Origin: Neobacillus sp. PS3-12
GTDB taxonomy: Bacteria > Bacillota > Bacilli > Bacillales > Cytobacillaceae
Direction of reading: 5' to 3'
Assembly: GCF_030915385.1 (NCBI RefSeq)
Contig: NZ_CP133268.1
Location: 4,500,001 to 4,564,000 of the forward strand
Length of the DNA: 64,000 nucleotides
This document shows, in pieces, positions 30,458 to 56,654 of this stretch. The position numbers and the translations under genes are program-made. The notes beneath the pieces were generated by a model. The model saw only the letters and a list, made by a program, of their open reading frames with translations, was not told the DNA's origin and did not search any database. Position 1 is the stretch's first letter; the number at the start of each line of letters is the position of its first letter.

Positions 30458-30562
30458 AAATAGTTACTGGGATAAGAAGTTTAATTACTATCATACTACT
30501 TTTTTAAGCTAAGTACTGCTTTACTTTAAGTTTTATTTTTAAAGTCTATTTTTATTTACCAC

Positions 30563-30698
30563 TATTCAACAATCGGGCGCTTTCCTGTAATAAGGAAAGT
30601 GCTTTTTTCAATTTTAGGGCCAGATTGTGGAATAACTCAATTAATGAAAAATTGATAAGGTAGTAGATGCTGTGAGTATTTTTTTTAAAACTAACGGA
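30563..30698 (+). repeat. Array repeat, copy 3
   Basis: ATTCAACAATCGGGCGC core (CAATCGGGCGC at 30570-30580), GCGCTTTCCT/AGGAAAGTGC stem with TTTTTT, TTTTAGGGCCAGATTGTGG and AATAAC, then CTGTGAG…AAAACTAACGG. The stem can also act as a terminator for the gene before it. Confidence 0.85.
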
Positions 30699-30868
30699 TA
30701 ATGAAAAGAAGACGGAAGGATGTTCTAAAAAGTAAATAAATCTAAAAACAGAGATAAGACAAATTAATGACTTTTATATTGAAAGACGTGAATCTTATGT
30801 AGGAAGTTTTAAAATATAAATAGACTTCTAAGATGATACGTGAAATAAAATATGTAGGAGTTGAAATT

Positions 30869-31282
30869 ATGTGGTCTAGAAATCAATATACTGGACCTGG
30901 GTGGTGGGCTATACACAGGACCAGGCGGTGGCCTATATACTGGACCAGGCGGTGGAGCATACACAGGACCAGGTGGTGGATTATACACAGGACCAGATGG
31001 TGGATTGTATACCGGGCCAGGTGGTGGATTATACACAGGACCAGATGGTGGATTGTATACCGGGCCAGGCGGTGGATTATACACGGGCAGGGTGGTGGAT
31101 TGTACACCGGGCCAGGTGGTGGATTGTACACCGGGCAGGGTGGTGGGGCCTATTCTGGAGCTGATACTGAACCTTATATGAGCAATATACCACCATGGCA
31201 TATTTTTGTTCAGGAATTAGAAAAACGTAGATATTACAAACAAGCTGAGTTAATTAGAAGGTACCATAATATTAATAACTGA
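30869..31282 (+). pseudogene. Glycine-rich GGLYTGP-repeat protein with two compensating frameshifts
   Basis: ATG 30869 follows TAGGAG. The start ([11 protein letters not shown]) and the end ([21 protein letters not shown], then SNIPPWHIF…[14 protein letters not shown]) are in one frame. The intended GGLYTGPG repeats between about 30900 and 31085 lie in the next frame. In the start frame they read as Trp/Arg-rich nonsense ([14 protein letters not shown]). Two compensating indels explain this. The unit is a 24-bp tandem repeat that is open in most frames. Similar Gly-rich proteins ending in SNIPPW…ELEKR occur in other bacteria; function is unknown. Confidence 0.65.
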
Positions 31283-35650: not shown

Positions 35651-35735
35651 GGATTGTAAAGTTTTTCACTTAAACTATTGGGGGCTTTACTTCAATAACG
35701 ATCTTCAGCAATCGGGCGCGATTGTGGAATAACAC
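35651..35735 (+). repeat. Array repeats, copies 6a/6b fused without a gene
   Basis: GGATTGTAAAGTTTTTCACT and TAAACTATTGGGGGC (35651-35685) run directly into ATCTTCAGCAATCGGGCGC (core 35709-35719) and GATTGTGGAATAAC. CAATC-GGGCGC-GATTG is a perfect inverted repeat. Confidence 0.85.
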
Positions 35736-41475: not shown

Positions 41476-41505
41476 AATAAAAATGACATTAGTGTCATTT
41501 TTATT
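41476..41505 (-). promoter_or_regulatory. TetR operator, perfect 13-bp inverted repeat
   Basis: AATAAAAATGACA and TGTCATTTTTATT are exact reverse complements separated by TTAG, 7 bp upstream of the tetR start. This suggests autoregulation. The stretch 41506-41827 shows no gene. Confidence 0.85.
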
Positions 41506-41827
41506 TTACAATATAACAAGATTTATTAGCAATACCTTGAATTGAATATGCCAAGGTATTAAATTTGATATTATATGAACTGAATTTATCTTAGACAAAA
41601 CCGAATTTCAGGAAGATAGTATCTTGAGTAGTTCCGAATAAAATTATGGCATTTCAATTGTGATTCTTTCAGCCTAGTTTAGCTAATGGGATCAATGATC
41701 AATTCCTGTGTGTGTAATGTTCTACCGAGGGGCAGTTGTTATCTTAAGACCATACAGAAAAAGGTCAACCAGGATTTTGGTTTACCTTATTACAAATGAG
41801 TTCTTTGGTGAATAAAGATTAAGTAAT

Positions 41828-41905
41828 GCTATTCCACAAACGGGCGCTTTTTTATAATAAGGATGAGCGCTTATTTTCCATTTTAAGGCCATTTAAATGT
41901 CCGGA
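41828..41905 (+). repeat. Array repeat, copy 8
   Basis: GCTATTCCACAAACGGGCGC (core 41837-41847), GAGCGCTT stem arm, TTTTAAGGCCATTTAAATG. It points + between two minus-strand genes. Confidence 0.75.
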
Positions 41906-41983
41906 TGCAGCAAAAGTTTATTTATTGCCCTAACGTAGAAGATAGTTAAAATCTCACAATCTTGTTACCGTCGGCTAAATTAT

Positions 41984-42688
41984 TTATTTATTTTGATGTT
42001 CGGATTTGTCACCGACACCCATTATTTTTGATGTGAAACGGCTGATCATCTCAGCAGCAAATCTTTCGTTTGCTCCTGCAAGGAATGCGGCAGCAAAAGT
42101 GAATATTTTTGCCGTATCTCCAGTTGCGTTTATTCCGTTCAGAATAACCGTAGTTACCAGTCCAATAAATGAACCCATTACTACACCAACAATGGGACGG
42201 ATAAGGTACCAGGAGGTAAAGGTAGGGTCCATACTACGATGGATCATATGAGTATATATTCCGTGTAAAGTAAAGGAAATTGCTCCTATGGATCCCGCAA
42301 TAGCACACAAGTAAATGGTTTGCATCCACGTCCATTTTTCTACCTGCATCGATGTGTTAAGTCCGCTTAAATGGATAGCTCCTAACCAAATCCAAAAACC
42401 AAGAAAAGCTAACTCATACAATATGATAATGTAAGGTTTATATGAACATGAAAATTCAAACCTTATCGGAGCGTTGTGGAGAGTTGTTCTTACCTGGTTT
42501 AATGATTCGTTCAATCCAATGTTATCACCAGGCTTTTTTGTTTCTAATTTGGCTTTCATGTTATCCAGAATAATGGACGCTTCCTTCACGTCGTAACCCT
42601 TGTCTGCAAAATCAGCGGTAGTTCCTTCGAGGAAAGATAATTGTTCTAACTCATCAGGCTGTTTTTCCTTTAGTTCTTCGCAACTCAT
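41984..42688 (-). CDS. Unidentified membrane protein
   Basis: The 234-residue protein has an N-terminal soluble, acidic part (1-85) and about four membrane helices (about 87-108, 122-142, 163-185 and 196-212). The end is GANERFAAEMISRFTSKIMG. I do not recognise the family. It stands alone between two array repeats and runs against the repeat orientation. Confidence 0.7.
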   Translation of the reverse strand: MSCEELKEKQPDELEQLSFLEGTTADFADKGYDVKEASIILDNMKAKLETKKPGDNIGLNESLNQVRTTLHNAPIRFEFSCSYKPYIIILYELAFLGFWIWLGAIHLSGLNTSMQVEKWTWMQTIYLCAIAGSIGAISFTLHGIYTHMIHRSMDPTFTSWYLIRPIVGVVMGSFIGLVTTVILNGINATGDTAKIFTFAAAFLAGANERFAAEMISRFTSKIMGVGDKSEHQNK

Positions 42689-42788
42689 TATGGTTTCCCC
42701 TCTATCGAATATAAATTAGCATAAATTAATTTTATACCTTATCTATTAGTTTGAATATAGTATGTTTAGTACATAATGTTGAAAAAGA

Positions 42789-42928
42789 CCAATCTTCAAC
42801 AATCGGGCGCCATTCTTGAGGATTGGCGCTCATTTTGCAATTTTAGGGCCATATTGCGGAACATCACTTTTAAAGAAAAATTGGTAAGAAGGAAGATATT
42901 GTGAAGAGTTTCACTCAAACTAACGGAC
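42789..42928 (+). repeat. Array repeat, copy 9 (fullest copy)
   Basis: CCAATCTTCAACAATCGGG (core CAATCGGGCGC 42800-42810). The outer arms CCAATC.TCAA and TTGA.GATTGG pair around the core. Then come TTTTAGGGCCATATTGCGGA, TTTTAAAGAAAAATTGGTAA and ATATTGTGAAGAGTTTCACT with CAAACTAACGG (ends 42926). A TTCAC/GTGAA mini-hairpin lies in the right part. Confidence 0.9.
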
Positions 42929-43047
42929 AGGTTAATTTAATACGAAATGATTAAAATAATTATAGCTGTGCTATATTCTAAATAATTCCAAAACAATAGA
43001 TTTAGTTTATAATACAGCTATAATAAATTTTTTAAAGGAGATTTTTT

Positions 43048-43863
43048 ATGGAGCTAATTACAGGTAAGGTCATAATAATATCTCTATTTTTATTTATAAT
43101 CACAATGATTGAGACATTAGCTTATTCAACAAGGATTTCAGGAGTAAGGGTAAAATTAATTGCAACTGCATTATCTTTGTTTGGTACATTAGTAATTGTT
43201 TCAAGGTTTTCCACTATGATACAACAACCTCTAACAGCAAAACTTATTGCAGAGGTACCCGAAAAATCTAACCCATTAAACTACATAGAGGGACAGTATA
43301 GAATTTTGATTTGGGTAACAACTTTTGGAGTATTGTTTGGAATACTTCTTTTTCCGACATTCATAAATATCTTTTCACGAGCCATTATTCAATTATCAAA
43401 TCAACGTGGCTCAGTCATTGCACTATTTATTAAGCATTGTAACCGAATAAGCTTTAAAAAGTTTTTTATGTGCTTCAGACTACCAAGATTAACATATCTG
43501 AAGGGTATTACCTTTAATACAATTCCAAAAAGGCTCTTTGTAATTAATGTTATCATTTCTGCTGTATTTACTATTGGGGTTCTTTCTTCTATATACGCAT
43601 CAATGCTAGTTCCAAAGTATTCACAAGCAGCATTAATGTCATCTGGGATAATAAATGGTATAGCAACAATTTTATTGACATTGTTTATTGACCCTAAGGC
43701 TTCCGTGTTAGCTGATAGAGTAATGAAAAATCAAACAGATTATATTTACTTGAAAAGTTACTCTTTGACTATGATTAGTTCTAAATTATTAGGGACAATT
43801 GCGGCTCAACTACTGTTTATCCCTGCGGCATATTATGTTGCTTGGTTTGCTAAGTGGATTTAA
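43048..43863 (+). CDS. amj: Amj-family lipid II flippase
   Basis: Amj moves lipid II across the membrane for wall synthesis and in B. subtilis substitutes for MurJ. The 271-residue protein has about six membrane helices; the start reads TMIETLAYSTRISGVRVKL and continues SLFGTLVIVSRFSTMIQQPL, the family signature, and the end contains FIDPKASVLADRV. Amj is normally a core gene. Here it lies between array repeats, so it is probably an accessory copy that could guard against MurJ-directed toxins. AAAGGAGA precedes the ATG. Confidence 0.85.
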   Translation: MELITGKVIIISLFLFIITMIETLAYSTRISGVRVKLIATALSLFGTLVIVSRFSTMIQQPLTAKLIAEVPEKSNPLNYIEGQYRILIWVTTFGVLFGILLFPTFINIFSRAIIQLSNQRGSVIALFIKHCNRISFKKFFMCFRLPRLTYLKGITFNTIPKRLFVINVIISAVFTIGVLSSIYASMLVPKYSQAALMSSGIINGIATILLTLFIDPKASVLADRVMKNQTDYIYLKSYSLTMISSKLLGTIAAQLLFIPAAYYVAWFAKWI

Positions 43864-43872
43864 TGGGTTTTG

Positions 43873-43945
43873 TTCAACTAACGGGTGCGATTCTGCATGA
43901 ATTGTGCTCTTTCTTTATGTTTAGGGTCATTTAATGGGATAAGAG
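43873..43945 (+). repeat. Array repeat, copy 10 (CTAACGGGTGC type)
   Basis: TTCAACTAACGGGTGCGATT (core 43878-43888), AATTGTGCTCTTTC arm, TTTAGGGTCATTTAATGGG and ATAAG. It shows that CTAACGGGTGC and CAATCGGGCGC are variants of one core. Confidence 0.8.
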
Positions 43946-44003
43946 TTTAAAATGCAGTTTTTATTGAATTAAAAAATTTTGTATTTATGATACCAAAATA
44001 TGG

Positions 44004-44055
44004 TTGACAAACTGAGATTACATTTGTAATATTGTCTATAAGATTACAAATGTAA
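44004..44055 (+). promoter_or_regulatory. blaI-type promoter with two BlaI operators
   Basis: TTGACA (44004-44009) and TAATAT (44027-44032) with 17 bp spacing form a strong promoter. TTACATTTGTAA (44018-44029) and TTACAAATGTAA (44044-44055) match the TACA..TGTA operator of BlaI/MecI. The first overlaps the -10 box and the second the transcript start. Confidence 0.9.
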
Positions 44056-44074
44056 TATTGGAGGATTTCCTTAA

Positions 44075-44485
44075 ATGACAAATGATTTACCTAAAATATC
44101 TGAAGCAGAATTGGAAATTATGAAAGTTCTTTGGGAAAAGGCACCTCAAACAGCCAATGAAATCATTGAAAAGCTGGAGTCAAAAATGGATTGGAAACCA
44201 AAAACTATTCGAACGCTTATTAACAGATTAGTTCAGAAAGAAGCTGTGTCTTTTCATCAAGGTAAAGGACGTTTATACGAGTATTATCCTGTGGTTTCGC
44301 AAGAGCATTTTTTACAAGTAGAGACTAAATCTTTTCTTAAGCGTTTTTATGGTGCATCCCTAAAACCGTTACTTGTGAATTTTTTGAAGGAAGAGAAGCT
44401 GTCATCAGAAGATATTAAAGAACTCAAACTAATTCTGGATGAAAAGAGTGATGAAAAACAGAGGAAGGATAACAAAAATGAGTGA
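44075..44485 (+). CDS. BlaI/MecI-family repressor
   Basis: The 136-residue protein has a winged helix (ISEAELEIMKVLWEKAPQTA, then KTIRTLINRLVQKEAV) and a helical dimerisation tail. Such repressors are cleaved when their M56 partner senses a signal. Two matching operators lie in its own promoter. It overlaps the next gene by 8 bp. No beta-lactamase is nearby, so its target is probably its own operon. Confidence 0.93.
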   Translation: MTNDLPKISEAELEIMKVLWEKAPQTANEIIEKLESKMDWKPKTIRTLINRLVQKEAVSFHQGKGRLYEYYPVVSQEHFLQVETKSFLKRFYGASLKPLLVNFLKEEKLSSEDIKELKLILDEKSDEKQRKDNKNE

Positions 44486-46721
44486 AATTTTTGGATACTA
44501 TCTACCTCGCTTTTTTAACTGGGTAATAAATACAACCATTATGGCAAGTATCCTGGTGGTGCTCATCCTAGCTGTTAAAATCCTTTTGAGAAACAGGCTA
44601 ACCCCAAGGTGGCATTACCTTCTTTGGATGATTTTAATTGTAAGACTGCTGCTTCCCTGGGCACCAGGAAGTTCTTATAGTATTTATTCAATCCTTTCAA
44701 ATGGGCACGTAAACACTATTTCTGTTCAATATAAACCTGATAACTCTATTAATAACAAACTTAATCAGGAACCGACAAATATACCCGACAATTTGGCCTC
44801 TAAGCAAGATCAAAAAGAAATATCCAACATACCTCATACAATTAAGGAGACTAACCCAAATACAATCAATTCAGAAGTGGTGCGGAATAAGAAACAACCG
44901 AATCAACAGAACAAACATAACAAACCAATTTCTTTAAATACTATTGCTTTATACATTTGGTTAACGGGAATTTTGGTTATCAGTTTCATTTCATACCGTG
45001 AAAACAGGAGGTTATACAGCCTAATAAAAAAACAACCAATGATTACAGATAAAAGAATTGTAGAGATGTTTGAGAACTGTAAAAAAGCTATGTCTATTCG
45101 AAAGATGATCACAATTCTCTCATTTGATAAATTATCAAGCCCAACAGTACTTGGATTTTTACGACCAAGGGTTTTACTCTCTAAGCAGTTAATAAATCAG
45201 CTTACGGATTCCCAACTGCGACATATATTTTACCATGAATTAGCCCATGTCAAACGAAAAGATGTAGCATTTAATTGGCTAATGTATTGTTTGTTAATCC
45301 TAAATTGGTTTAACCCCATTCTTTGGTTAGCTTACTTTTGCATGAGGGAGGACCAGGAACTTGCATGTGATGCGTACGCTCTTTCTTACTTGGATGATGA
45401 GGAAAAAATCCCTTATGGACTAACGATTATCAACCTCTTAGAACATTACTCAAATTTTTATCAGGTACCAAGTTTGGCCAATTTGAGCAGAAATAAAGGC
45501 ACATTAAAGAGGAGGATCTTTATGATTAAAACTTTCCAGAAAAAATCGTATCGTTGGTCTGCTCTCGGTTTCATTACGGTTCTTGCCGTTTCATCTTTGA
45601 CCCTGCTAAATGCACATGCAGATGGGTCCAATGGTAAGCAAATAAAACAAACAACAGAAAAAGTTTCAAAGAATGAAAACAAAAAAGAGCAAACTGTGTA
45701 TATCCCCCCAATACAAAAAGAAAGTTTTAAAGTTATGACAAAAGAAGAAGTTCTTACGAAAATGCTTAATACTGTCGATTATTTTAAAACTGCCAAAGGG
45801 GAATTTAAAATACATTATGGAAATATTGATGGTCCAATTAGCTATTCGATCATTGATTACGAACTTAGTTTGAAAAATAATTATAATGCAGGCGGTTATA
45901 GTAAAACAACCGGGGTTGTAAATGGAAAGGAAACATTGAGATATAATTATTATAGGGATGGCGAGATGTGGGATTTAAATCCGGAGACTGCAACGTATAC
46001 TGAAGCAGGATATTTAACGGGTGAAAAGCAAGGGACCTTAAAAATTCAAGATGCATTTCCACAGACCGATGTAACAAACTATCGTGAACGCCCTCCTATT
46101 GGCCAGGCAATGAGTTCTTTATTCCCTTATGAAATTGCGTCAAATTATACAAGGAATTTAGATACCTGGGAAATAGAAAAACAAAACGAAGAATTGTTAG
46201 GTCATAACATGCTGGTTATTAAAGGGAAAATAAACAAAATAGTCAACAAGTCCTTCAGGTTCTGGGTAGATAAAGATACGGGAATACTCGTCAAATACGA
46301 AACCTACGATGCGTCTGGCAAGGTCAATGATTATTTATACCCAACAAAACTTGAGATAAATGTGCCTATTGATCGTAATGATTTTGTTCCAAAATCATTA
46401 GATGCTTATAAGAAATTCGACAAGTCTTTAATCAAAAAAGGACCGATTTTAGAGACTGGTAACATTGATAATGAAATACCAAAGGAATTGAAAACTCAAT
46501 GGGACGAAGCGAAGAAAAAACCAAATGAAACCACCATCTTAAATCAAAATGACATATGGTATATCTCCGTAAAAAGGGGTTACCTGGCAGATTATATTGA
46601 GGTAAATGGTAAGGAAGGTACATTATTTTTGGCAAAAACCTCACGGCAAAAATCACAATTTATTTTCCATGCTCTTGCTAAAGGATATAAAGTGGACACA
46701 CTTAAAATTAAATATGAATAA
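44478..46721 (+). CDS. BlaR1/MecR1-type M56 metalloprotease sensor with a LolA-like sensor domain
   Basis: The 747-residue protein has membrane helices and a cytoplasmic M56 zinc protease: FYHELAHVKRKDVAFNWL (HExxH) and the third ligand region REDQELACDAYAL. After the last helix (about residue 390) the outside domain is not the penicillin-binding domain of BlaR1. It looks like a LolA/RsgI-type lipoprotein-carrier fold (TKEEVLTKMLNTVDYFKTAK … YYRDGEMWDLNPETATY). The signal is thus probably not a beta-lactam. ATG 44478 follows GAGGAAGGA. Confidence 0.85.
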   Translation: MSEIFGYYLPRFFNWVINTTIMASILVVLILAVKILLRNRLTPRWHYLLWMILIVRLLLPWAPGSSYSIYSILSNGHVNTISVQYKPDNSINNKLNQEPTNIPDNLASKQDQKEISNIPHTIKETNPNTINSEVVRNKKQPNQQNKHNKPISLNTIALYIWLTGILVISFISYRENRRLYSLIKKQPMITDKRIVEMFENCKKAMSIRKMITILSFDKLSSPTVLGFLRPRVLLSKQLINQLTDSQLRHIFYHELAHVKRKDVAFNWLMYCLLILNWFNPILWLAYFCMREDQELACDAYALSYLDDEEKIPYGLTIINLLEHYSNFYQVPSLANLSRNKGTLKRRIFMIKTFQKKSYRWSALGFITVLAVSSLTLLNAHADGSNGKQIKQTTEKVSKNENKKEQTVYIPPIQKESFKVMTKEEVLTKMLNTVDYFKTAKGEFKIHYGNIDGPISYSIIDYELSLKNNYNAGGYSKTTGVVNGKETLRYNYYRDGEMWDLNPETATYTEAGYLTGEKQGTLKIQDAFPQTDVTNYRERPPIGQAMSSLFPYEIASNYTRNLDTWEIEKQNEELLGHNMLVIKGKINKIVNKSFRFWVDKDTGILVKYETYDASGKVNDYLYPTKLEINVPIDRNDFVPKSLDAYKKFDKSLIKKGPILETGNIDNEIPKELKTQWDEAKKKPNETTILNQNDIWYISVKRGYLADYIEVNGKEGTLFLAKTSRQKSQFIFHALAKGYKVDTLKIKYE

Positions 46722-46730
46722 ATCACATGG

Positions 46731-46760
46731 AAGCGATACTAGGATTGAGTATCGCTTTCT
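46731..46760 (+). terminator. Terminator after the M56 sensor gene
   Basis: AAGCGATACT and AGTATCGCTT form a perfect 10-bp stem followed by a T-rich stretch. Confidence 0.8.
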
Positions 46761-46802
46761 TTATGTTGTCGTAATTTTATAAGTTATGACACAGACCAAA
46801 CC

Positions 46803-46880
46803 TAAACAATCGGGCGCTATCCTTGAACTGAACAAGGGTAAGCGCTCATTTTCCACTTTAAGGGGTTAGTTGAATAAAGC
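46803..46880 (+). repeat. Array repeat, copy 11
   Basis: CTAAACAATCGGGCGC (core 46807-46817), GCGCTATCCTTG/CAAGGGTAAGCGC stem, TTTAAGGGGTTAGTTGAATA. Confidence 0.85.
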
Positions 46881-46952
46881 GAAAGTATTTTTAGAAATTA
46901 TTTGACTTTCCCCCAAGAGTATAAATTACTGTATGAATAGGAGGTGGAAATA

Positions 46953-47879
46953 ATGAAAATTAGTGATGCAATGAAAGAAACAGGGCTTACTAGAAAGGCG
47001 ATTTATTATTATGAAGAGTTGGGGTTGATTAGTCCAACTCAAGAGGGTGAGAATTCATATCGCAACTATTCAGAGTCGGACATCCAAAGGTTGAAACAAA
47101 TTAAAGCTCTTAGGCTACTTGATATTTCACTGGATCAAATTAAAGGTATCTTTGATAATCCGTTAGCATTTAATGATATTATGGAGGACCAATTAGAAAA
47201 AATTAAGGAAAAAATAGATGTCCTAAACAATACAGAAAATATTATTAAATCAATGTTAACCCAAAATGGAAGTAACAATGTTTCACTATCGAAAAACCTT
47301 GATAAGTTAAATCACTATTTAGTCTTGAATGCAAAAGCATCTAAAAACTTTATGAAGAAGGAACTTGAAAGAATTTTCCCGTCAGGATTTGGTAAATTAA
47401 TGGCGATAATGTATGGAACATTCTTAGATGAACCAATTGATTCAAAGGAAAAGGAAATGGCTTGGTTACAACTTGTAAACACTCTTGACTCAACTGAAAT
47501 TGTGGAATTTCCAGATGAAATTAATTCCATTTTAAATAAGTTTTATGAACAAATTTCAAAAGAAGGAATCGATAATTTTGATGCCCAGATTCAACGAATA
47601 TCCAATAACATTTCATCCTTCTCAGATAATATTTCAGAAGAAGAAAAAGAAGTTATTAAGGGGAAAATGGATAAAGCACAAAATCAAGAAGGATATAACG
47701 AACTATTGGAAATGAGTAAGAAATTATTTCAATACATCCAAGACAACCCTAATATTATCCCAGCGGATTTTTCAAAATATCTTAAAATCTTAAGTAAAAA
47801 ATACAATGAAGTTATTAATAACTTTTCAAAAGCTTTTAAATCAGAATACACCATAGGAAAAACTTTTGGTACAAATTGA
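46953..47879 (+). CDS. MerR-family transcriptional regulator
   Basis: The 308-residue protein has a MerR winged helix (MKISDAMKETGLTRKAIYYY, then EELGLISPTQEGENSYRNYS) and a coiled-coil segment, followed by about 190 helical residues with no known ligand pocket. The start at 46953 follows GGAGGTGG; an in-frame GTG at 46944 sits in the ribosome site. A TTGACT lies about 50 bp upstream. No target gene is adjacent in the same direction. Confidence 0.88.
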   Translation: MKISDAMKETGLTRKAIYYYEELGLISPTQEGENSYRNYSESDIQRLKQIKALRLLDISLDQIKGIFDNPLAFNDIMEDQLEKIKEKIDVLNNTENIIKSMLTQNGSNNVSLSKNLDKLNHYLVLNAKASKNFMKKELERIFPSGFGKLMAIMYGTFLDEPIDSKEKEMAWLQLVNTLDSTEIVEFPDEINSILNKFYEQISKEGIDNFDAQIQRISNNISSFSDNISEEEKEVIKGKMDKAQNQEGYNELLEMSKKLFQYIQDNPNIIPADFSKYLKILSKKYNEVINNFSKAFKSEYTIGKTFGTN

Positions 47880-47928
47880 TATCTTATAAAGGGTGGTGTT
47901 TTTTAAGAAAGCGTCACCCACTTTCTTC

Positions 47929-48085
47929 TTTAACTATTGGTGGCTTTAATGAATTACTTAGGAAGGTTTTACAGCTCTTTGGTATTTTTCAATATTCAGC
48001 AATCGGGCGCTTTACTTCAATATGGAGTAAAGCTTTTTCTTTATTCAAGTAAAGGGTCAGGTTACTTCAATAAACCTTTAGCAGG
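47929..48085 (+). repeat. Array repeats, copies 12a/12b
   Basis: TTTAACTATTGGTGGCTTTA (12a) is followed by ATTCAGCAATCGGGCGCTTT (core 48000-48010). A GCTTTACT/AGTAAAGC stem with TTTTTC and an AAAGGGTCAGGTTACTTC end follow. Confidence 0.75.
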
Positions 48086-48144
48086 GAATTTATAAAATGA
48101 TGTGGAATAGTGTTTTATCGTGGTAATTTATAGGGGGAAATTGG

Positions 48145-48556
48145 GTGGGTTTAATTACACTATTAGAAGATAATGGAATTGTTGTTACACAACATAACAA
48201 AGGTACAGAATTGCGTTTAAAATGGATTAATAAGTTTGTTGGCAAAATGAGTACATTTGAAGAGAAATCTATATTTATTGACCAATTTTTATGGCACGTA
48301 TTTAGTTATGAGAAGATAAAATGCTTAGAGAATAAAGAAGCAAATGATGCATTTAATAAGCAGAAAAAGAAGGTTTGTTATGTTTTTTATCAACAAAGTA
48401 ACAATGCTTACAAACTAAATAATGCTGATAAATTAAAGGCTGATTATTTACAGAACGAAATTGATGTATATAGTTGTTGATGGGGATTTTAATTGGACGT
48501 ATGTAAAAACACACGAAGGTGATTGCGGACCTTATTTTTATAAATCAATTAATTAA
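48145..48556 (+). pseudogene. DUF4275-like protein, frameshifted near the C-terminus
   Basis: GTG 48145 after AGGGGG opens a frame with SIFIDQFLWHVFSYEKIKC and KVCYVFYQQSNNAYKLNNAD, the DUF4275 pattern. It stops at 48480, but the expected tail (DVYIVVDGDFNWTYVKTHEG, then DCGPYFYK) continues in the neighbouring frame to 48556. One base change near 48465-48472 separates them. Without it the protein would be about 136 residues. Confidence 0.7.
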
Positions 48557-48572
48557 TTCTTCTTTAGTAACA

Positions 48573-48680
48573 TTGTGGATATTTTCACTTAAACTAACAG
48601 GGGCGTTAGCAGTAGAACAAATTAATCGATTTTAGGGCTGGGGCAACATCTTAGGTATTCCAGAAAAGGGCGCGTTACTG
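48573..48680 (+). repeat. Array repeats, copies 13a/13b
   Basis: ATTGTGGATATTTTCACTTA and AACTAACAGGGGCG (48573-48605) are followed by TTTTAGGGCTGGGGCAAC, then by CAGAAAAGGGCGCG (48661-48674). Confidence 0.7.
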
Positions 48681-48684
48681 GGAG

Positions 48685-48708
48685 ATCCGGCTCATTGCCG
48701 GATTTTTT
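48685..48708 (+). terminator. Terminator within array copy 13
   Basis: ATCCGGC and GCCGGAT pair around CTCAT and are followed by TTTTT. Confidence 0.85.
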
Positions 48709-48821
48709 ATTATTCAATTAAAGCACTCGATATTTGAAGAAGGATTTTTAATTTAAACAGACGAAATTATTAGGAATTCAAGAAAATTTATAGTGGAAAA
48801 GGCTAATAAGGGGAAGCAAAA

Positions 48822-49418
48822 ATGAAAAAAATTCCGACATCTATTAGAAACTATTGTGTTCGGTGTAGTGAAATAACAGACTTTATTTTTCTTAAAACAG
48901 AGAGAATAAAAGGATTAGGTGAACTAGTCATATTCGAATGCAATAAATGTGGTGAACCACAGAACATTTTCCGAAACGATCTTAAAGATGTCATTAATAA
49001 TTTTAGTGAATGGGAAAAGGGTAAGAAACTGGAGATAGCAGAAGATGAAAAAATTGAGCAGTTAGTTCGGAAGGATATTATGAACTTAGATGAATTGAAA
49101 AAAAACAAACCAACAAACCAATGGGTAGAGAATGGTGAGGATGATGAATTTTTTACTAAAAAAAATATAAATGAAATAAATGAAGTTCTTAACGCCTACA
49201 TTGACAACTTAGTGAAACTAGGGGCTAATTCTTCCGAAGAAGAAATAATGAAAGCAGTTAAGGAAGTGGTCATTCGAATAAATGACTTAAATGAAAAATA
49301 CGATTATTTTATCGAAACGATGGAGAGAGAAGACTTGTATCAGTTTATTGATACTGCTGCAAAGATAGCTGGGTTGGAATCCGAGGACGACATTACTGAA
49401 GAGTGGAGAGAATGGTAA
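48822..49418 (+). CDS. Zinc-ribbon protein of unknown function
   Basis: The 198-residue protein has an N-terminal zinc ribbon: YCVRCSEITDF and IFECNKCGEPQN supply two CxxC pairs. The rest is acidic and helical (EEEIMKAVKEVVIRINDLNE). I do not recognise the family. It may be a Zn-dependent adaptor. AAGGGGAAG precedes the ATG. Confidence 0.65.
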   Translation: MKKIPTSIRNYCVRCSEITDFIFLKTERIKGLGELVIFECNKCGEPQNIFRNDLKDVINNFSEWEKGKKLEIAEDEKIEQLVRKDIMNLDELKKNKPTNQWVENGEDDEFFTKKNINEINEVLNAYIDNLVKLGANSSEEEIMKAVKEVVIRINDLNEKYDYFIETMEREDLYQFIDTAAKIAGLESEDDITEEWREW

Positions 49419-49424
49419 ATTAAG

Positions 49425-49560
49425 TTTCTCTATTTAAATGAATGGGGGCAAGAGTTAGAGTTCGATTACCTGCAATGATCGCTTCGACGGTCATTTTTCT
49501 TGTTGAAGTAAACGTGTCAGTTTAGTGTAATAAGGCTCCTTCCTAAAAAGGATATTTTTA
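49425..49560 (+). repeat. Array repeat, degenerate copy 14
   Basis: AATGAATGGGGGCAAGAG begins a stretch with ATGATCGCTTCGACGGTCAT hairpin and TTTTTCTTGTTGAAGTAAAC, the tail seen in other hairpin-type copies. Confidence 0.5.
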
Positions 49561-49612
49561 TTAATCAAGAGAATTAAAATAGAATGGATTTAAATTAGTG
49601 AAGGAGCTAAAT

Positions 49613-50295
49613 ATGAAAAACAAAACAATCATTGATATTAGGTATTATGGAACTGAACAATATAAATTTGACCGTTCACTAAATGCAATTGGTGAAAGAT
49701 ACGCTAGAAAACTACGTGAGTTGGATTTTAAAACAGGTGAATATGACCATATATACATCAATTTAATCGAATCCTTAAATGAGGGGTGTGTGGAAATTTT
49801 AACTCAAGAAGACGTAATTTAAATCAAGATGAAAAACACTTATTTATTATTGAATTGACTAAGGATGTTTTACGTGTCCTTTGTGAGAGAGATGGACTTG
49901 ACTTTTCTGTTGTAAAGGAAGTCGAGGAAATGATATTACGTTATAAAACAGAATTAGAAATTTTACATAAGGTAAAGGAAACAACAAAATATAAAGTGGT
50001 TATTATTAGCTATCAGATTAGACCCTTAAACAATGCTTCTACTTCAAATATTGAATACACAGATAAAACCAAAGGTGTTAGCAAGAAAAAAATACTTACT
50101 ACTCTTAAAATGTATGAAGATATTTTTTACTTAGTTTCATCTATTAACGTTACAAAGGAATTTGTAACATTAAAACCAAGAGTATCATCAATAGCAGAAA
50201 TGCATCTACGTTCGTATAGAACACCTATCCAAATCCCTGTTGAAGATTTGTTAAACAAAAATGATAAAATTTCTCCAAAAGTTATCTTAAGGTAA
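49613..50295 (+). pseudogene. Unidentified protein in two overlapping frames, probably frameshifted
   Basis: ATG 49613 (MKNKTIIDIRYYGTEQYKFD) stops at 49822 after ILTQEDVI. The next frame is open from 49786 with no good start and continues NQDEKHLFIIELTKDVLRVL to PVEDLLNKNDKISPKVILR at 50295. Joining the frames near 49812-49820 gives one plausible protein of about 227 residues. Alternatively these are two overlapping genes. I do not recognise the family. Confidence 0.55.
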
Positions 50296-50418
50296 CGGGT
50301 GGCTTTAGTAAAAAAATCAGAGTGCATTTTTGCAGTTCTACCACATTTCCCACTATTCCGCAATCGGGCGCTTTCGGGGAATAACGTATTTATTTCTTGG
50401 GCCAGTTAGCGGAATAAA
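50292..50418 (+). repeat. Array repeats, copies 15/16
   Basis: GTAACGGGTGGCTTTAG is followed by TATTCCGCAATCGGGCGCTT (core 50361-50371) with a matching CGGGGAATA arm, and GGGCCAGTTAGCGGAATAA. Confidence 0.8.
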
Positions 50419-50515
50419 TTTATTTTTTTAGAATATCACAGGAAAAGCATGGGCTTTTAAATAATGAAGAAATGTAGTTCAAAATGTGATTTCATTAATT
50501 TGGAGGTAAGATTAG

Positions 50516-51265
50516 ATGAATATAAAATTTGATCAAAACAACGTCGTTATTAAACTCTGTATGAGTGGGATGAACATGGAAGATGGCGGAAACGTTGAAG
50601 GTGCAACCACGATGTTTCATCAAGCTTGGCACGAAGCAAAAGACGACTATGAAAGGTTTATTGCAGCTTATCATTTGGCTCGTCAACAAAAGAGTATTAC
50701 AGACAAATTGAAATGGATGGAAACATCTTTACAGTGTGCACTAAATATAAATGATAAAAATGTTAAGAGTGCATACTCAACATTATATTTAAACATTGCC
50801 AAATGCTATGAGGAGTTGTGTGATTCTGATAATGCAAAAAGAAATTATGAATTGTCAAATTCATATGAGGGTGCACCTTCTGATGAAGGACCATTTTATC
50901 ATGGGACAAAGGCAGATTTGCAGGTTGGTGATTTACTGACAGCGGGTGGAGATTCAAATTACAAACCTGAGCTTAAAATGAACCATATTTATTTCACTGC
51001 TAATGCTAATGGCGCAGGACTTGCAGCAGCATTAGCAAAAGGAGAAGGAAGAGAACGCGTTTATATAATAGAACCAACAGGTGAATTTGAAAACGACCCA
51101 AATGTTACTGACAAAAAGTTTCCGGGTAACTTAACACGATCTTATCGCTCAAAAGAACCTTTAAGAATTATTGGTGAAGAAACAGAGTGGGCGAAACTGA
51201 CAACTACGGAGCGACGTGAATGGCGCGAAAATTTAGCCAAAAACAAGGGCGAAATTATTAACTGA
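50516..51265 (+). CDS. arr: TPR domain fused to Arr-type rifampin ADP-ribosyltransferase
   Basis: Residues 1-115 form two or three TPR-like helix pairs (ATTMFHQAWHEAKDDYERFI, AKCYEELCDSDNAKRNYELS). Residues about 125-245 are a complete Arr domain: GPFYHGTKADLQVGDLLTAG, YFTANANGAGLAAALAKGE, RVYIIEPTGEFENDPNVTDK and SYRSKEPLRIIG. Arr enzymes use NAD+ to ADP-ribosylate rifamycins at the C23 hydroxyl. Typical Arr is about 140 residues and lacks the TPR part. The extension may regulate the enzyme or present another target. GGAGGTAAG precedes the ATG. Confidence 0.88.
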   Translation: MNIKFDQNNVVIKLCMSGMNMEDGGNVEGATTMFHQAWHEAKDDYERFIAAYHLARQQKSITDKLKWMETSLQCALNINDKNVKSAYSTLYLNIAKCYEELCDSDNAKRNYELSNSYEGAPSDEGPFYHGTKADLQVGDLLTAGGDSNYKPELKMNHIYFTANANGAGLAAALAKGEGRERVYIIEPTGEFENDPNVTDKKFPGNLTRSYRSKEPLRIIGEETEWAKLTTTERREWRENLAKNKGEIIN

Positions 51266-51440
51266 ACATATTTAAAAGGAGTAAAATAGTTACTTTTCAA
51301 GTTTATCTGAGGGCTAACACATAAAATAAAGCAAGGCATCCTACGTGATATATCGTAGAGTGCCCAATTTGGCTGATGATCCAAGACCACTCAGCTTTTA
51401 TACCTAATAAAGGGTAAACATTAATTTTTATTTTACCGAT

Positions 51441-51505
51441 ACTCCGCAATCGGGCGCGAAAACGCAACAACCTGGACTGTTTTTGAGCAGTCCATTTTTC
51501 TTGGT
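51441..51505 (+). repeat. Array repeat, copy 17, with terminator
   Basis: ACTCCGCAATCGGGCGCG (core 51447-51457), then GGACTG…CAGTCC stem (51474-51493) and TTTTTC. The rest of 51266-51586 shows no gene. Confidence 0.8.
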
Positions 51506-51586
51506 CTTTAATTAGTAATAGGCAGGTTTGTGTAAGAAGGATTATTTATAAGGTTCAACGAAAATACCTTTTTATGGGGGGATAAA

Positions 51587-52018
51587 GTGGAAATAAATGT
51601 TTTATTTTATAAAATTCAAAAGGGAACAATTACAACTGAGGATTATGTAAATTGGTCTTATAGTCAATTAGAGAAAAATGTATCATCACCATCCTTAAAT
51701 ATTATCTCTTCATTTTCGTTCGATGATAATCTATTTGAAGTGGAAATGTATTTTAAAAGAGCAATAGATGAGTTGGCAATAAACGAACCAACCTTTGATA
51801 TATGTGCAAGGGTATATATAGGCTTTTTAGCAAATAAAATTAAAAAAGCTTATGAGCATACAGTAATATTCGATTTAGCTGATATGATTTTTCAAATTGC
51901 TGCTACGGAATTAGATAATGCAGATGACTTGTTTGCTTGGTTTGAAATTAGTGAAATGATTGATAGGCTAAATTATGATGATCAATCTTTTATGTTGAAT
52001 GAAGACGATTTAATTTAA
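51587..52018 (+). CDS. Unidentified small protein, 143 residues
   Basis: An acidic, mostly helical protein (GTITTEDYVNWSYSQLEKN … FAWFEISEMIDRLNYDDQSF). The style resembles bacterial polymorphic-toxin immunity proteins, but I cannot name a family. TGGGGGG precedes the GTG start. Confidence 0.55.
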   Translation: MEINVLFYKIQKGTITTEDYVNWSYSQLEKNVSSPSLNIISSFSFDDNLFEVEMYFKRAIDELAINEPTFDICARVYIGFLANKIKKAYEHTVIFDLADMIFQIAATELDNADDLFAWFEISEMIDRLNYDDQSFMLNEDDLI

Positions 52019-52077
52019 AGGATAAAGAATGAGGCTGAAATCCTACAAAGGTATATTAATTAAATATTCCTTATTGA

Positions 52078-52140
52078 ACGAACGTGGCGTTTGTTCAGTT
52101 AGGTCAGCTGCTTCTTAAGCTAACGATACAGATTAGTGCA
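52078..52140 (+). repeat. Array repeat, degenerate copy 18
   Basis: GAACGAACGTGGCGTTTGTT and TTCTTAAGCTAACGATACAG resemble the two arms of the palindromic copies. Confidence 0.45.
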
Positions 52141-52228
52141 AGAAGGAGAAATAAGAAAAAACAGCGAAATCATACACCTATTGAACGAAGCTGGAGAGAT
52201 AACGATTTGAATACAAGGAGAGCTGATA

Positions 52229-52582
52229 ATGTTCGAGACCATTGGTTGGCGGTTTTACATAAACGCAAAAACTAAAGATAATGCTCAAAATGTATTAACA
52301 AGAATTGAAAAGGTTACTGGTAACCTAAAAATTAGTTCATTAGAACAATATTGGAAAGACAATTCACTCTTTGAAGTTTATTGTGATTCTTCGTTTCAGG
52401 TAGAGGAACCAGAAAAGGCAATATTCGAAGTTCTTCTTTTGGTTAATCAATTAGGACACGATATAGATATTGTCGGTCCTCTGTTATATGAAAATGAACA
52501 AGTGGAATTCTCGGGTAATTGTTCGAGACCATCTATCGTTGGGTTAAAGTGGCTTCATTTTTATTTAGATAATTTCAGATAA
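52229..52582 (+). CDS. Unidentified small protein, 117 residues
   Basis: A mixed alpha/beta protein (MFETIGWRFYINAKTKDNAQ … GLKWLHFYLDNF) with AAGGAGAGC before the ATG. I do not recognise the family. A GAGTGC hairpin-type repeat follows it (52588-52635). Confidence 0.55.
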   Translation: MFETIGWRFYINAKTKDNAQNVLTRIEKVTGNLKISSLEQYWKDNSLFEVYCDSSFQVEEPEKAIFEVLLLVNQLGHDIDIVGPLLYENEQVEFSGNCSRPSIVGLKWLHFYLDNFR

Positions 52583-52671
52583 ATGTCGTTCATAATAGGC
52601 TACTCCATATTCAATTAACGGAGTGCTTTTGTTTCACAATTAATATTCGAATAAATAGGGGAAGTGTTTCT

Positions 52672-52914
52672 GTGCGGTATGTATATGTTTTAGAACACAG
52701 TTACGAGTATGAATATGAAGGCGAAATGTTTGATGAGATAAAAATGATTGGTGTCTTTTCAACAAAAGAAAAGGCGGAAGAAGTGATTGAAAAATATATG
52801 ACACTACCTGGGTTTGAAGACCATCCCAAGGAATGCTTTCATATAGGTAAATACGAGATTGATAAAATTAGTGGATGGGAAGAAGGCTTTATTAAATGGA
52901 CGGATGCTTATTAA
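52672..52914 (+). CDS. DUF7336-like small protein
   Basis: The 80-residue protein (RYVYVLEHSYEYEYEGEMFD, IKMIGVFSTKEKAEEVIEKY, LPGFEDHPKECFHIGKYEID, GWEEGFIKWTD) has the pattern of a small domain common in Bacillus and in toxin-immunity loci, often labelled DUF7336. It starts with GTG after AGGGGAAG. Function is unknown. Confidence 0.65.
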   Translation: MRYVYVLEHSYEYEYEGEMFDEIKMIGVFSTKEKAEEVIEKYMTLPGFEDHPKECFHIGKYEIDKISGWEEGFIKWTDAY

Positions 52915-52985
52915 GCTAACGGGTAGCAAGAGTTGAATAACAGGGTTGTCGTTGCAGCAACTTTTCCTTATTGTGCTAACTGGCA
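52914..52985 (+). repeat. Array repeat, copy 19
   Basis: AAGCTAACGGGTAGCAAGAG (core 52916-52927), GTTGTCGTTGCAGCAAC hairpin, TTCCTTATTGTGCTAACTGG. It overlaps the stop of the preceding gene. Confidence 0.7.
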
Positions 52986-53042
52986 GTTAAAGATGCAGTC
53001 GAGGTATAATTATCGTTAATAATACTTTTAAAGGTGATTGTT

Positions 53043-53462
53043 ATGACCGTTAAAAATGAATTGGTTGTGTGGAACCCAAAGAGTGAGATACCACTAAAGT
53101 TGCTTGAATTAGAAAAATATGAGTGGAATGAAACTGGGTTCAGTATTACCCTATGTGCTGACGAAAGATTAATAAGATTTAGTTTCAATTTTGTTATGTC
53201 ATTTCAAAGCACTAATGAACAGATGATGCTAAGATTTAGGGATTCATATGGGGAGTTAAGAGATAAAAAGTTTTCAAACTATGTGTGGTCATTATTCAAA
53301 GTAAAGAACTCAGATTACATAAAATGGTTTAATGAACAACACCTCAATCGGTACGAAACCATAGCAAGTAATGTGGAACATTATTTATTTGTCACTGAAG
53401 ATGAGATATTAGAAGTGATAAACGACCACCCTCCAACCATTCATATTGAAAAGAAAAGATGA
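53043..53462 (+). CDS. Unidentified small protein, 139 residues
   Basis: A protein (MTVKNELVVWNPKSEIPLKL … RFSFNFVMSFQSTNEQMMLR) of mainly beta then helical character. AAGGTGATT precedes ATG 53043. I do not recognise the family. Confidence 0.55.
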   Translation: MTVKNELVVWNPKSEIPLKLLELEKYEWNETGFSITLCADERLIRFSFNFVMSFQSTNEQMMLRFRDSYGELRDKKFSNYVWSLFKVKNSDYIKWFNEQHLNRYETIASNVEHYLFVTEDEILEVINDHPPTIHIEKKR

Positions 53463-53466
53463 TATT

Positions 53467-53530
53467 TAACTAACAGGTGCATTACTGGAACAACGGTAAT
53501 GCTATTTTCTTATTGAAGTAACCGTTAATT
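53467..53530 (+). repeat. Array repeat, copy 20 (clear palindrome)
   Basis: AACTAACAGGTGC (core 53470-53480), GCATTAC/GTAATGC stem, CTTATTGAAGTAACCGTTAA, whose end is the near reverse complement of the start. Confidence 0.8.
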
Positions 53531-53693
53531 AAAAAAGGAGAATAATTGTGTGTTGTTGAATTAATACCTATTTGCTGCAGTTTTTAATGTTTCCCGTCCC
53601 TTCAGATGTTTTTAATGCTTATTTGCAGTTAATAGCGGGTGGACAACCGAAAGGAGAAAGAATATTATTTCTTTAAATAAAGGATGGTTTGAT

Positions 53694-54428
53694 ATGACGG
53701 CAGTTTTATGTTATACCACTGATTACTTATCTTTGATTATTTCTAATAAAAGAGTATCTTACGGTAAATACGCTGAAGCAGGATACACCGATGAGTATGA
53801 AAAATTGGTTAATCTCCCCGAAATGGGTTGGGCAGCTGGTGCCGGAGCAGCTGGTTATTTAGATCAACTTAAAGAATCACTGGCAAATACAGTGATTTCA
53901 AGTGTTCAGGACATTATGGATGTTTATAATAAAGTATCTACTTCTTTTTCTTTAAATCCCTTTTATTCGGAGGAGGATTTAAATAGTAGTGCTGTAGTGG
54001 CTTCTTGGATAGGTTTTGATGAAGAAATCAACTCTATAAAGTTTCGCATCGGTGTTCTTTCTTCGGAGCATATAGGACAAGAAGGAATGGGAAGTTTAAG
54101 AGATAATCAGATATTTACCCTTTATCCAATTGATTACATAGAAGATGAGGATAAAATAAGAGATTTGTGGAATAGACATGGATGGGAATATCAGTTTAAT
54201 GGTGATATAAATGCACTTTTTGAAAAGATGTTCACCATTCTTAATGAAATCTCCAGTCATTCAAAATATGTAAGTTCAACCTGTGATATAGGATTACAAA
54301 TCTTACTAGGTGATGGGATATATAAAGTTAAATTCTCAGGAGAAATAGACGAACTTATAAACGAAGTAAAAGCAAATTGCATTCATGAACGATATCAACT
54401 GATAAGTAGGATCGGCAGCAATGATTAA
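53694..54428 (+). CDS. Unidentified protein with Ntn-hydrolase-like N-terminus
   Basis: The 244-residue protein begins MTAVLCYTTDYLSLIISNKR, then WAAGAGAAGYLDQL. A Thr directly after Met, two beta strands and a glycine-rich turn resemble the start of proteasome-beta-type Ntn hydrolases. This is inference from pattern only. AAGGATGG precedes the ATG. It stands alone between repeats. Confidence 0.5.
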   Translation: MTAVLCYTTDYLSLIISNKRVSYGKYAEAGYTDEYEKLVNLPEMGWAAGAGAAGYLDQLKESLANTVISSVQDIMDVYNKVSTSFSLNPFYSEEDLNSSAVVASWIGFDEEINSIKFRIGVLSSEHIGQEGMGSLRDNQIFTLYPIDYIEDEDKIRDLWNRHGWEYQFNGDINALFEKMFTILNEISSHSKYVSSTCDIGLQILLGDGIYKVKFSGEIDELINEVKANCIHERYQLISRIGSND

Positions 54429-54443
54429 GGAGAATGACTCTAA

Positions 54444-54560
54444 ATAACACGGGTGCTTGAGTTCACAATGTATGTTCCGATTGGAAACAACATAATGATG
54501 GCTGTGGCGGTCATTATTTCTTGTTTAAATAACGTTCCAGTTTACTGATTGAAAGTCCTT
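54444..54560 (+). repeat. Array repeat, copy 21
   Basis: AATAACACGGGTGCTTGAG starts a stretch with GTTCCGATTGGAAACAAC, then GGCGGTCATTATTTCTTGTT and a GTTCCAGTTTACTG end. The rest of 54561-54714 shows no gene. Confidence 0.6.
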
Positions 54561-54714
54561 AAGCAACATATCAGCCCTAAAGACTCGGATTTCACATTTT
54601 GGGATGCTTTTCTTTTTAGCTCGATGGATATGTCATGATCCCTGTATTTGCTTTTATTTGTATCACTTTTAATTGATATATCATTTGTTGCAACATGGGA
54701 AAAGGAGAGGAAAA

Positions 54715-55455
54715 ATGAATTACATATTTACGGATATTTCTACCCATCTGGATTTTGGTCTTGGCGTAACGGCTGGGAAATTCAGAGAGGCTGCAAATTT
54801 TTTAGATCAAGCTGAAGATTATAAGTCAGGAATACAATCGGATGAACTTCCTACCCTTTATCTATACCGTCATTCCATTGAACTGTATTTGAAATCGCTA
54901 ATCATCATTTTACATAAAAAGCTACAACTTCCTTACAAAAATGGAGAGGTACCGTTTGATACCACTACCCCTTATGTCTACAATAAGAAAAAAAAACAAT
55001 GGACCGAACTAACGAAAACCCATGATATTTATACATTGTATTCCTATTTTATAAGTCTGGTTACACAGCACAAACCATTGCTAGAACAAAAAGCACCTAA
55101 AGGTGGTTGGAATATAGAGAAGCCAGAAAATGAGAAATATGTGAATCTGATTCGGAATTATGATTTTGACAGCACCTATTTCCGTTATCCCGTTACCAAA
55201 AATACAAATATGGATAAGCATAAATATGGAGTAGAACGGGTGATGGATGAACAATCATTAATGAAAAAAATACAAGCAAATAAACCAGAAAAGGAATTTA
55301 CTCTTCTTATTTTAGATGAAAATGACAACTTCGTAGAAGCTCATCGAAAAACCCATAGCCGTTTACAAGGTGTTGCAGAAGCTTTGAAAGAACTATCGTA
55401 TTTTTTAGAGGGAATTCATATCATGACAAGAATGGCGTTATGTGATGGATGGTAA
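54715..55455 (+). CDS. HEPN-like helical protein
   Basis: The 246-residue protein has LYLYRHSIELYLKSLIIILH near residue 45. This is the pattern (yRHaiElyLKaLi) of HEPN-type helical bundles that bind or cut RNA in toxin and defence systems. The catalytic Rx4-6H motif is not evident, so it may be non-catalytic. ATG 54715 follows AAAGGAGAGG. Confidence 0.55.
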   Translation: MNYIFTDISTHLDFGLGVTAGKFREAANFLDQAEDYKSGIQSDELPTLYLYRHSIELYLKSLIIILHKKLQLPYKNGEVPFDTTTPYVYNKKKKQWTELTKTHDIYTLYSYFISLVTQHKPLLEQKAPKGGWNIEKPENEKYVNLIRNYDFDSTYFRYPVTKNTNMDKHKYGVERVMDEQSLMKKIQANKPEKEFTLLILDENDNFVEAHRKTHSRLQGVAEALKELSYFLEGIHIMTRMALCDGW

Positions 55456-55518
55456 ACAACAAACAACTCGACGAATCTCGTTGGGTTGTCTTATTTTCCG
55501 CTACAGATTCAAATGATT

Positions 55519-55583
55519 CGGGTGCCTACTGGTATATTTCTAAATAAGCGGAGATGCATTTTTCTTATTAAGCTAAGGCACCG
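55519..55583 (+). repeat. Array repeat, copy 22 (clear palindrome)
   Basis: CGGGTGCCTACTGG at the left and AAGCTAAGGCACCG at the right; GGTGCCT (55521-55527) pairs with AGGCACC (55576-55582). CTTATTAAG precedes the right arm as in other copies. The rest of 55584-55748 shows no gene. Confidence 0.8.
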
Positions 55584-55748
55584 TTTGTTCAATAAGAAAT
55601 CACAAAAGGAATGAGCATTTACTGTAAAATGAGATTAGACGTATTAATGTTCTAATAAAAAAGTTATGCAAAAAATCAAGGTGATGCACATTAGAAAAAA
55701 ATGCGAAGAATAATACACAGACAAATAGTAATTTGTTGAGGAGACGTT

Positions 55749-56645: not shown

Positions 56646-56654
56646 AATAAGAAC

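Follow-up and report, generated by a model that had tools for sequence, protein, structure and literature searches.

The 64,000-nt window analysed here, positions 4500001–4564000 of a 5.61-Mb single-contig genome, carries at 42789–42928 an element that we interpret as a cluster of core sites of a gene-cassette system, with an Xer-type tyrosine recombinase carried by the system itself as the candidate catalyst; the probability of this reading is put at about 85%. The element belongs to a dispersed repeat family and is not a chance occurrence, and the system is of a kind already known, in which gene cassettes are moved by a tyrosine recombinase. A preliminary description of the element had proposed that such repeats are recombination-type sites bordering mobile gene cassettes, which the present results support, and that they form one two-part element whose outer arms enclose a core, which they contradict. 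All sequence pieces quoted in that description are found at 42789–42928, but they belong to three tandem recombination-type sites at 42791–42825, 42832–42866, and 42911–42945, the third of which continues past the described stretch to 42945.

When many copies are read side by side, the core site has a common plan, consisting of an arm of ∼13 bp, an asymmetric spacer of 6–10 bp, and an inverted arm of ∼14 bp. Arm and spacer sequences are conserved, and the recurrent spacers fall into two classes, A (CGGGCGC, GGGTGC) and B (GGGCCA, GGNGCAG). Core site 1 is of A-type, aatcttcaacaat-CGGGCGCC-attcttgaggattg, with its spacer CGGGCGCC starting at 42804 and a plus-strand score of 27.7 (reverse, 17.0). 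Core site 2 (spacer AGGGCCAT from 42845) scores 18.1 on the plus strand and 11.9 in reverse, and core site 3 (spacer CGGACAGG from 42924, plus strand) scores 15.7. Sites 1 and 2 enclose a 41-bp segment with a terminator-like hairpin, an inner GC hairpin at 42806–42830 on the plus strand (GGCGCCAT..TTGGCGCTC region) that is followed by T-rich DNA and is placed like the terminator-like stems of other copies. The gene-free stretch from site 2 to site 3 (42867–42910, plus strand, AAAGAAAAATTGG..ATTGTGAAG) lies within an 85-nt, 92% match at G000:C1:4577665–4577749. The further copies cited in the preliminary description as examples of changing stems are each present where it placed them; those at 23641–23666 and 61318–61353, however, each represent both arms of one single site, and in the copy at 55521–55582 the GGCACC half is part of a site at 55564–55597, which scores higher on the reverse strand (26.5) than on the forward strand (22.3), whereas the GGTGCC half lies within a GGGTGC string at which the matrix calls no site.

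A core-site matrix trained on this genome only finds 208 sites (score ≥15) in 440 kb around the clusters of the genome, compared with four in a reversed-sequence control; the 106 matrix sites found at the same score on the complementary strand of the same 440 kb arise in part because the sites are near-palindromic. An oriented profile, trained on the forward strand, gives 90 forward matches (E ≤ 1) in this region and 14 on the reverse strand, each weaker than the forward match it overlaps. At a score ≥13 the window contains 42 matches, of which the isolated ones at 8402 and 12425 were set aside, leaving 40 sites from 23637 to 61353; at a score ≥15 it also contains 40 matches, among them the isolated match at 12425. 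The 40 sites divide the window between 23.6 and 61.4 kb into segments of 0–3 crudely called genes, and many of the segments are gene-free stretches of 34–79 nt. The window array extends beyond the window to about 4615623 in the genome, where similar copies are mainly clustered at about 0.10–0.16, 3.91–3.94, 4.42–4.475, and 4.52–4.616 Mb, with further scattered pattern matches. Two chromosomal arrays hold 59 and 105 sites, and two arrays reach site densities (score ≥13) of 0.97 and 1.12 per kb, as against 0.057 per kb in the remainder of 4.40–4.66 Mb. A known RNA family was ruled out as the identity of the element, since a search over 41500–44200 gave no match up to E 1; over the whole window, tRNA-Sec alone was returned at gathering thresholds. 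This selenocysteine tRNA, in the stretch 16439–17767, is followed by two adjoining integrase pieces (16644–17105 and 17048–17767), as if an element had inserted near the tRNA and then decayed. A 52-bp repeat is present at 84–239 of the window in three tandem copies, each with an inverted repeat; tandem repeats in Bacillus are reportedly treated in a published paper (PMC8161180).

The sites have a direction that is nearly uniform within each array. Thirty-eight of the 40 window array sites score higher on the plus strand, those at 48709 and 55564 score higher on the minus strand, and one further minus-strand match lies at 53551, while the crude gene calls of the window array number 26 on the plus strand and six on the minus strand. 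In four arrays of this genome the ratios of majority to minority strand are 50:2, 92:6, 29:2, and 19:1, and neighbouring non-array stretches of 47 and 43 kb contain two sites and one site, respectively. At 16 loci of five other genomes, picked for holding the repeat or the recombinase, 298 sites follow the majority strand of their locus and 13 run opposite to it; the reversed control has nine.

The segments between sites carry varied cargo. The first array site in the window (23637–23671, plus strand, attgttccattaa-AGGGCCAT-ttaatggaataact, score 24.9, reverse 21.2) is followed by the segment 23650–28304 with a Gabija-type defence pair on the minus strand at 24087–26689, comprising GajB (24087–25109; PADLOC 4.4e-47) and GajA (25094–26689; PADLOC 2e-101). 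The matrix then identifies, on the plus strand, a pair of sites that are spaced 42 nt apart and enclose a terminator-like hairpin (30561–30637, spacers from 30574 and 30616) and two sites 34 nt apart (35666–35734, spacers from 35679 and 35713). Further plus-strand features are BlaI-like (44075–44485; PF03965) and BlaR1-like (44439–46721; PF05569) genes in the segment 43923–46811, a gene with a rifampin ADP-ribosyltransferase (Arr) domain at 50516–51265 (PF12120, E 3.4e-45) in the segment 50365–51451, a segment at 51438–52146 that is duplicated at G000:C1:4423015–4423709 with 97% identity, and the last recognised window sites at 61274–61353 (matrix; spacers from 61287 and 61332). In the duplicated segment the left arms are unrelated, identity begins at GGGCGC, and divergence on the right is at CTAACG. 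Besides Gabija, the array cargo includes AIPR/AbiU-like, DUF2971, ketoacyl synthase, histidine kinase, CrtI-like, TetR-like, MerR, and NucC-like genes; the CrtI, TetR, and BlaR1 models score under their NCBIfam cut-offs. A Pfam search of 29 window proteins included 22 from the array region, nine of which match no family. At 30833–31282, in one cassette segment, 24-bp repeats occur inside open reading frames (there and in others), and one frame appears glycine-rich by eye.

The cassette bounded on the left by core site 3 extends from 42924 to 43882 and carries on the plus strand a gene for Amj, alternate to MurJ (43048–43863; PF10997, E 2.1e-88), which recurs in other species. Its right boundary, identified by matrix and terminator scan at 43869–43944 on the plus strand, consists of sites with spacers from 43882 (CGGGTGCG) and 43923 (AGGGTCAT) and a terminator-like stem at 43883–43909 between them. 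The Amj stretch 42940–43868 has matches in 75 of 193 genomes, this one included, many of them short or partial, and some are probably ordinary chromosomal orthologues. At 19 other Amj loci a site lies within 10 nt of the homology end on the left in eight and on the right in nine, counts made without a control; six of the 19 have no site near either end. In one genome (G152) the Amj copy and the recombinase are neighbours.

Blocks of homology terminate at the spacers, both within the genome and between species. Within the genome, 29 homologous pairs (≥150 nt, ≥75% identity, at least 100 nt outside sites) provide 58 ends, 17 of them no further than 5 nt from a spacer, against 1.18 expected and a maximum of six in 300 draws; 34 of the 58 lie more than 15 nt from any site, which counts against a site-specific model. 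A 747-bp stretch common to 4440520 and 4453504 (98.9%) diverges after CGGGCG, and a 4.5-kb multi-cassette block is common to 3928031–3932545 and 4427156–4432015 in two pieces of 98.8% and 95.8% identity. Beyond both ends of the latter block the DNA is unrelated, and each end falls inside a site, the left break within shared TTCAACAATCGGGCGC and the right just after CGGGCG. Between species, the 311 ends from a comparison of recombinase loci (homology ≥300 nt, ≥85%) include 170 that are no more than 5 nt away from a spacer (17.6 expected) and 272 no more than 15 nt away (35.0 expected), although the pairs are not independent; loci L241 and L242, for example, have in common a two-cassette block of 1.84 kb at 99.1%. 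An insert of ∼316 bp, present at a cassette site in one block and not in the other, distinguishes two otherwise near-identical blocks (L010:10332–10647, i.e., G000:C1:4430332–4430647, and G000:C1:3931214). This occupied/empty pair was dropped as proof, as the right end of the insert lacks a site arm.

The preliminary description had taken changes in the stem sequence with pairing kept as a sign of selection on a folded structure, as in attC sites used as single strands, and had called for covariation and strand-specific folding to be examined. Across aligned copies, covariation is clear for the inner terminator-like stem and weak for the arms of the sites. In tests of neighbouring sites 33–60 nt apart, the inner stem has at least six of seven bases complementary in 16 of 44 copies (shuffled mean 3.2, maximum 9 in 1000), so that compensatory change holds for this stem; pairing of the arms is barely above that of shuffled arms (0.552 vs. 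0.520 for 203 distinct arm pairs, z 4.3, with none of 500 shuffles as high). The composite outer arms covary unconvincingly (n 44, z 1.9, 39 of 1000 shuffles equally good). T-rich DNA frequently follows this inner GC stem, which makes it terminator-like. A terminator scan of 42600–62000 finds 20 structures, several at sites, against 8.5 expected (sd 3.0), and the copy at 42806–42830 did not qualify. The description had allowed that its folding argument would fall if the stems were fully explained as terminators of the upstream gene; for the inner stem, the results point that way. Folded separately, the two strands of 42791–42866 give similar, unexceptional results (z −1.8 and −2.0), whereas the single site 23637–23671, a perfect palindrome, forms a good fold on either strand (z −4.1 and −3.4), as expected of such a sequence. 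Extrahelical bases were inspected by eye in three sites.

Comparison of the tyrosine recombinases of eight array-bearing genomes yields one family of ∼280–290 aa that is closely tied to the core sites. In 30 of 30 family loci, these being the best-scoring locus in each of 30 genomes from the 102 with a match, core sites lie within about 1.5 kb (154 in all), whereas control recombinase loci, Xer-like genes included, show a single site, at one of 23 loci. An earlier profile search gave matches in 24 of 36 recombinase loci, three of the 36 duplicating places already counted, compared with 0 of 23 controls. The recombinase gene runs antiparallel to the direction of the sites and forms a unit with sites (score ≥15) at both ends in 23 of the 30 loci, at one end in four, and at neither end in three; its length from spacer to spacer is 969–1041 bp, corresponding to a cassette of ∼970 bp. 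By eye, the sequence is alike inside both junctions of the unit and unlike outside them, and in an ungapped column profile, with 26 and 27 of the 30 loci anchored, clear peaks stand at the two sites and identity further inside the unit, where register is lost, is modest. The recombinase inside this cassette has its catalytic residues: R-K-H-R-H-Y are present in 28 of 28 proteins examined, namely 26 of the 30 loci and two others, the remaining loci having been removed by a length or motif filter. A PF00589 match (E 1.9e-40) assigns the recombinase to the tyrosine recombinase superfamily. By sequence, the closest solved structures are 1a0p (XerD, 1.7e-32), 4a8e (4.2e-31), and 5hxy (XerA, 2.9e-28), and the protein scores under the cut-offs of the XerC, XerD, and XerA models. 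In a tree the family stands apart, with support of 1.000, from 16 other recombinases, among them the two Xer-like proteins of this genome. The family match of this genome lies at 4587829–4588410 within a unit at 4587522–4588491, 24 kb past the window, and the gene is broken by a frameshift; two family matches are counted in this genome, and the remaining one probably represents another piece of this broken gene. Relatives carry intact copies, and because the copy found here is broken, mobility in this genome would require a copy in trans.

The recombinase is widespread. At E ≤ 1e-45, 102 of the 193 genomes from the taxonomic family contain a match, with zero to six per genome; at E ≤ 1e-60, 85 of 397 genomes sampled across the order do so, representing 44 of 136 genera. 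A subtype pattern, CAATCGGGCGC, is present in 95 of the 193 genomes; it occurs together with the recombinase in 61 and alone in 34, while 41 have the recombinase alone and 57 neither (p 0.0024). The link between recombinase and repeat is thus real yet incomplete at the level of genomes, and it is much tighter locally. Given these 34 and 41 discordant genomes, some sites may be substrates of another recombinase. The 34 of 95 without a recombinase match (E ≤ 1e-45) include one genome, G013, with 26 copies of the subtype; in its loci L229–L232 the many sites run in one direction per locus, and here a second recombinase perhaps uses the same sites. Among 72,556 plasmid records, 23 match the recombinase at E ≤ 1e-40, seven of them with at least 60% identity; sites flank the recombinase gene on both sides on a Sporosarcina psychrophila plasmid and lie near it on a Peribacillus simplex plasmid. 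In a phage collection, 16 tyrosine recombinase records match at E ≤ 1e-30, and identity does not exceed 60% in any of them. Pattern scans returned at least 119 stretches in genome contigs, for which chance alone is estimated to give about 240, and 35 stretches in viral contigs.

Most likely, the candidate recombinase, itself carried as a cassette, would exchange strands between matching spacers, so that cassettes would be excised, inserted, and reordered head to tail, with the asymmetric spacer setting the direction of each cassette. The interval of roughly 41–60 nt from an A site to a B site often contains a terminator-like hairpin, which would insulate adjoining cassettes from each other. 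We infer that the sites would act as duplex DNA, that excised circles may be the intermediates, and that matching of the spacers would be required. The modelled spacer of 6–10 bp is wider than is usual for tyrosine recombinases, which counts against the model.

Other explanations have been weighed against this one. Integron-type attC sites are recognised by an integron integrase and recombine in a folded, single-stranded form, and the one-direction cassette arrays, the recombinase gene antiparallel to the sites, and the partial stem covariation are what such sites would lead one to expect. The attC boxes are RYYYAAC and GTTRRRY; the two occur together in 0 of 40 window matches (score ≥15) on either strand. 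With the boxes absent, the arm pairing near that of shuffled arms, and both strands folding alike, attC-type folding was rejected, and with it the suggestion of the preliminary description that the site is used as a folded single strand. The candidate recombinase, moreover, scores 88.8–96.8 bits with the integron-integrase model TIGR02249 (cut-off 265) and 57.7–65.1 with NF011946 (cut-off 435) in three proteins, and most loci (23 of 30) show sites at both ends of its own unit. We consider the attC explanation very improbable. Passive REP- or MITE-like repeats and terminators could instead provide homology for ordinary recombination, as the terminator-like hairpins and the more than half of within-genome homology ends that lie away from sites would allow; the breakpoints in or beside a short spacer with unrelated DNA outside, the near-constant direction of the sites irrespective of gene strand, and their tight tie to one recombinase family leave this explanation scarcely tenable.

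That a different enzyme acts on the sites is a further possibility, which we regard as unlikely. It could be supplied by three adjacent tyrosine recombinase genes (444, 358, and 322 aa) at 19929–23335, which end about 300 bp ahead of the first site, or by the host XerC/XerD pair, and the dif-like architecture of the sites and the existence of some site-rich genomes without a close match to the proposed recombinase speak for such an enzyme. The trio was the first candidate for the catalyst, as it borders the first site, and was rejected because its relatives lack sites. Its first protein has matches (E ≤ 1e-40) in six of 193 genomes, this one and G071, G084, G089, G143, and G184; the latter five hold 0, 0, 0, 1, and 0 pattern matches, respectively, and have no sites around the trio, and 16000–23600 of the window is without sites. 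As to the host pair, an exact-string search for the pdif arms CGTATAA and TTATGTTAA, which is a crude test, finds them in 0 of 40 window matches (score ≥15), and the control loci, with Xer-like genes among them, have only the one site mentioned above. The genome also carries other recombinase genes. A RIT-like three-recombinase element has four copies with the same domain scores (L028:1537–3977, G000:C1:3236353–3238793, L025:976–3416, and L014:13133–15572), and the three copies that were compared are at least 99.8% identical, with no core site at their ends by eye. Adjacent recombinase genes at L024:17149–19507 (G000:C1:3917149–3919507), in the 3.9-Mb cluster, have open frames of 353 and 652 aa, sizes that we take to resemble those of Tn554 transposases.

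Integrons are the textbook cassette machine, and the arrays with their candidate Xer-type recombinase resemble them in being long and head to tail, in running in one direction, in having small cassettes with varied cargo, and in having a dedicated antiparallel tyrosine recombinase gene. In contrast to integrons, the sites here are short with inverted arms and stand at both ends of a unit, attC boxes are absent, and the recombinase appears to be carried as a cassette and not on a fixed platform; in 23 of 30 loci ordinary sites stand on either side of it, which speaks against a fixed attI platform. The conserved structure with variable sequence that characterises a folded single-strand attC site is likewise not found in the arms. 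Integrons are rare in Firmicutes, where one complete integron (Limnochorda pilosa) and a few integrase-less arrays are reported (PMC9024848), and the present system would be a counterpart there. The core sites, moreover, provide a search handle for unknown genes and their origin, because the array holds defence-type, Arr, BlaI/BlaR1, and Amj genes in addition to the proteins without a Pfam family. In the open literature, with preprints and most subscription papers outside its scope, no description of such arrays in Bacillales was found, and one may exist elsewhere.

The pdif/dif modules of Acinetobacter plasmids, moved by XerC/XerD, offer a second parallel, in that genes are set apart by inverted-arm sites with short spacers and modules are shuffled by exchange at the spacer. 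Inverted arms with exchange at the spacer are found in the present system as well, with a modelled spacer of 6–10 bp compared with 6 bp. As reported in PMC13141974, pdif modules depend on the XerC/XerD of the host, have dif arms with a 6-bp spacer, and carry their sites in either orientation, from which C and D modules arise; here, by contrast, the arms are different, site direction is near-uniform, the arrays are chromosomal, and the recombinase is self-carried. RIT-like recombinase trios are similar in that they are tyrosine recombinases of the same genome and differ in that relatives of the trio have no surrounding sites, and archaeal XerA and bacterial XerD are the closest structures to the recombinase by sequence, with the recombinase family forming a separate branch. 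The system works like integrons and pdif modules yet fails defining tests of both. On balance, and with less assurance than for the cassette reading itself, it would be a third independent cassette system beside these two, with platform-free arrays across Bacillales built on duplex core sites of two spacer classes, in which all units are interchangeable, the recombinase gene and the gene-free mini-cassettes with terminators among them, and through which genes for defence, stress, and antibiotic response would pass between species and between replicons without a fixed integron.
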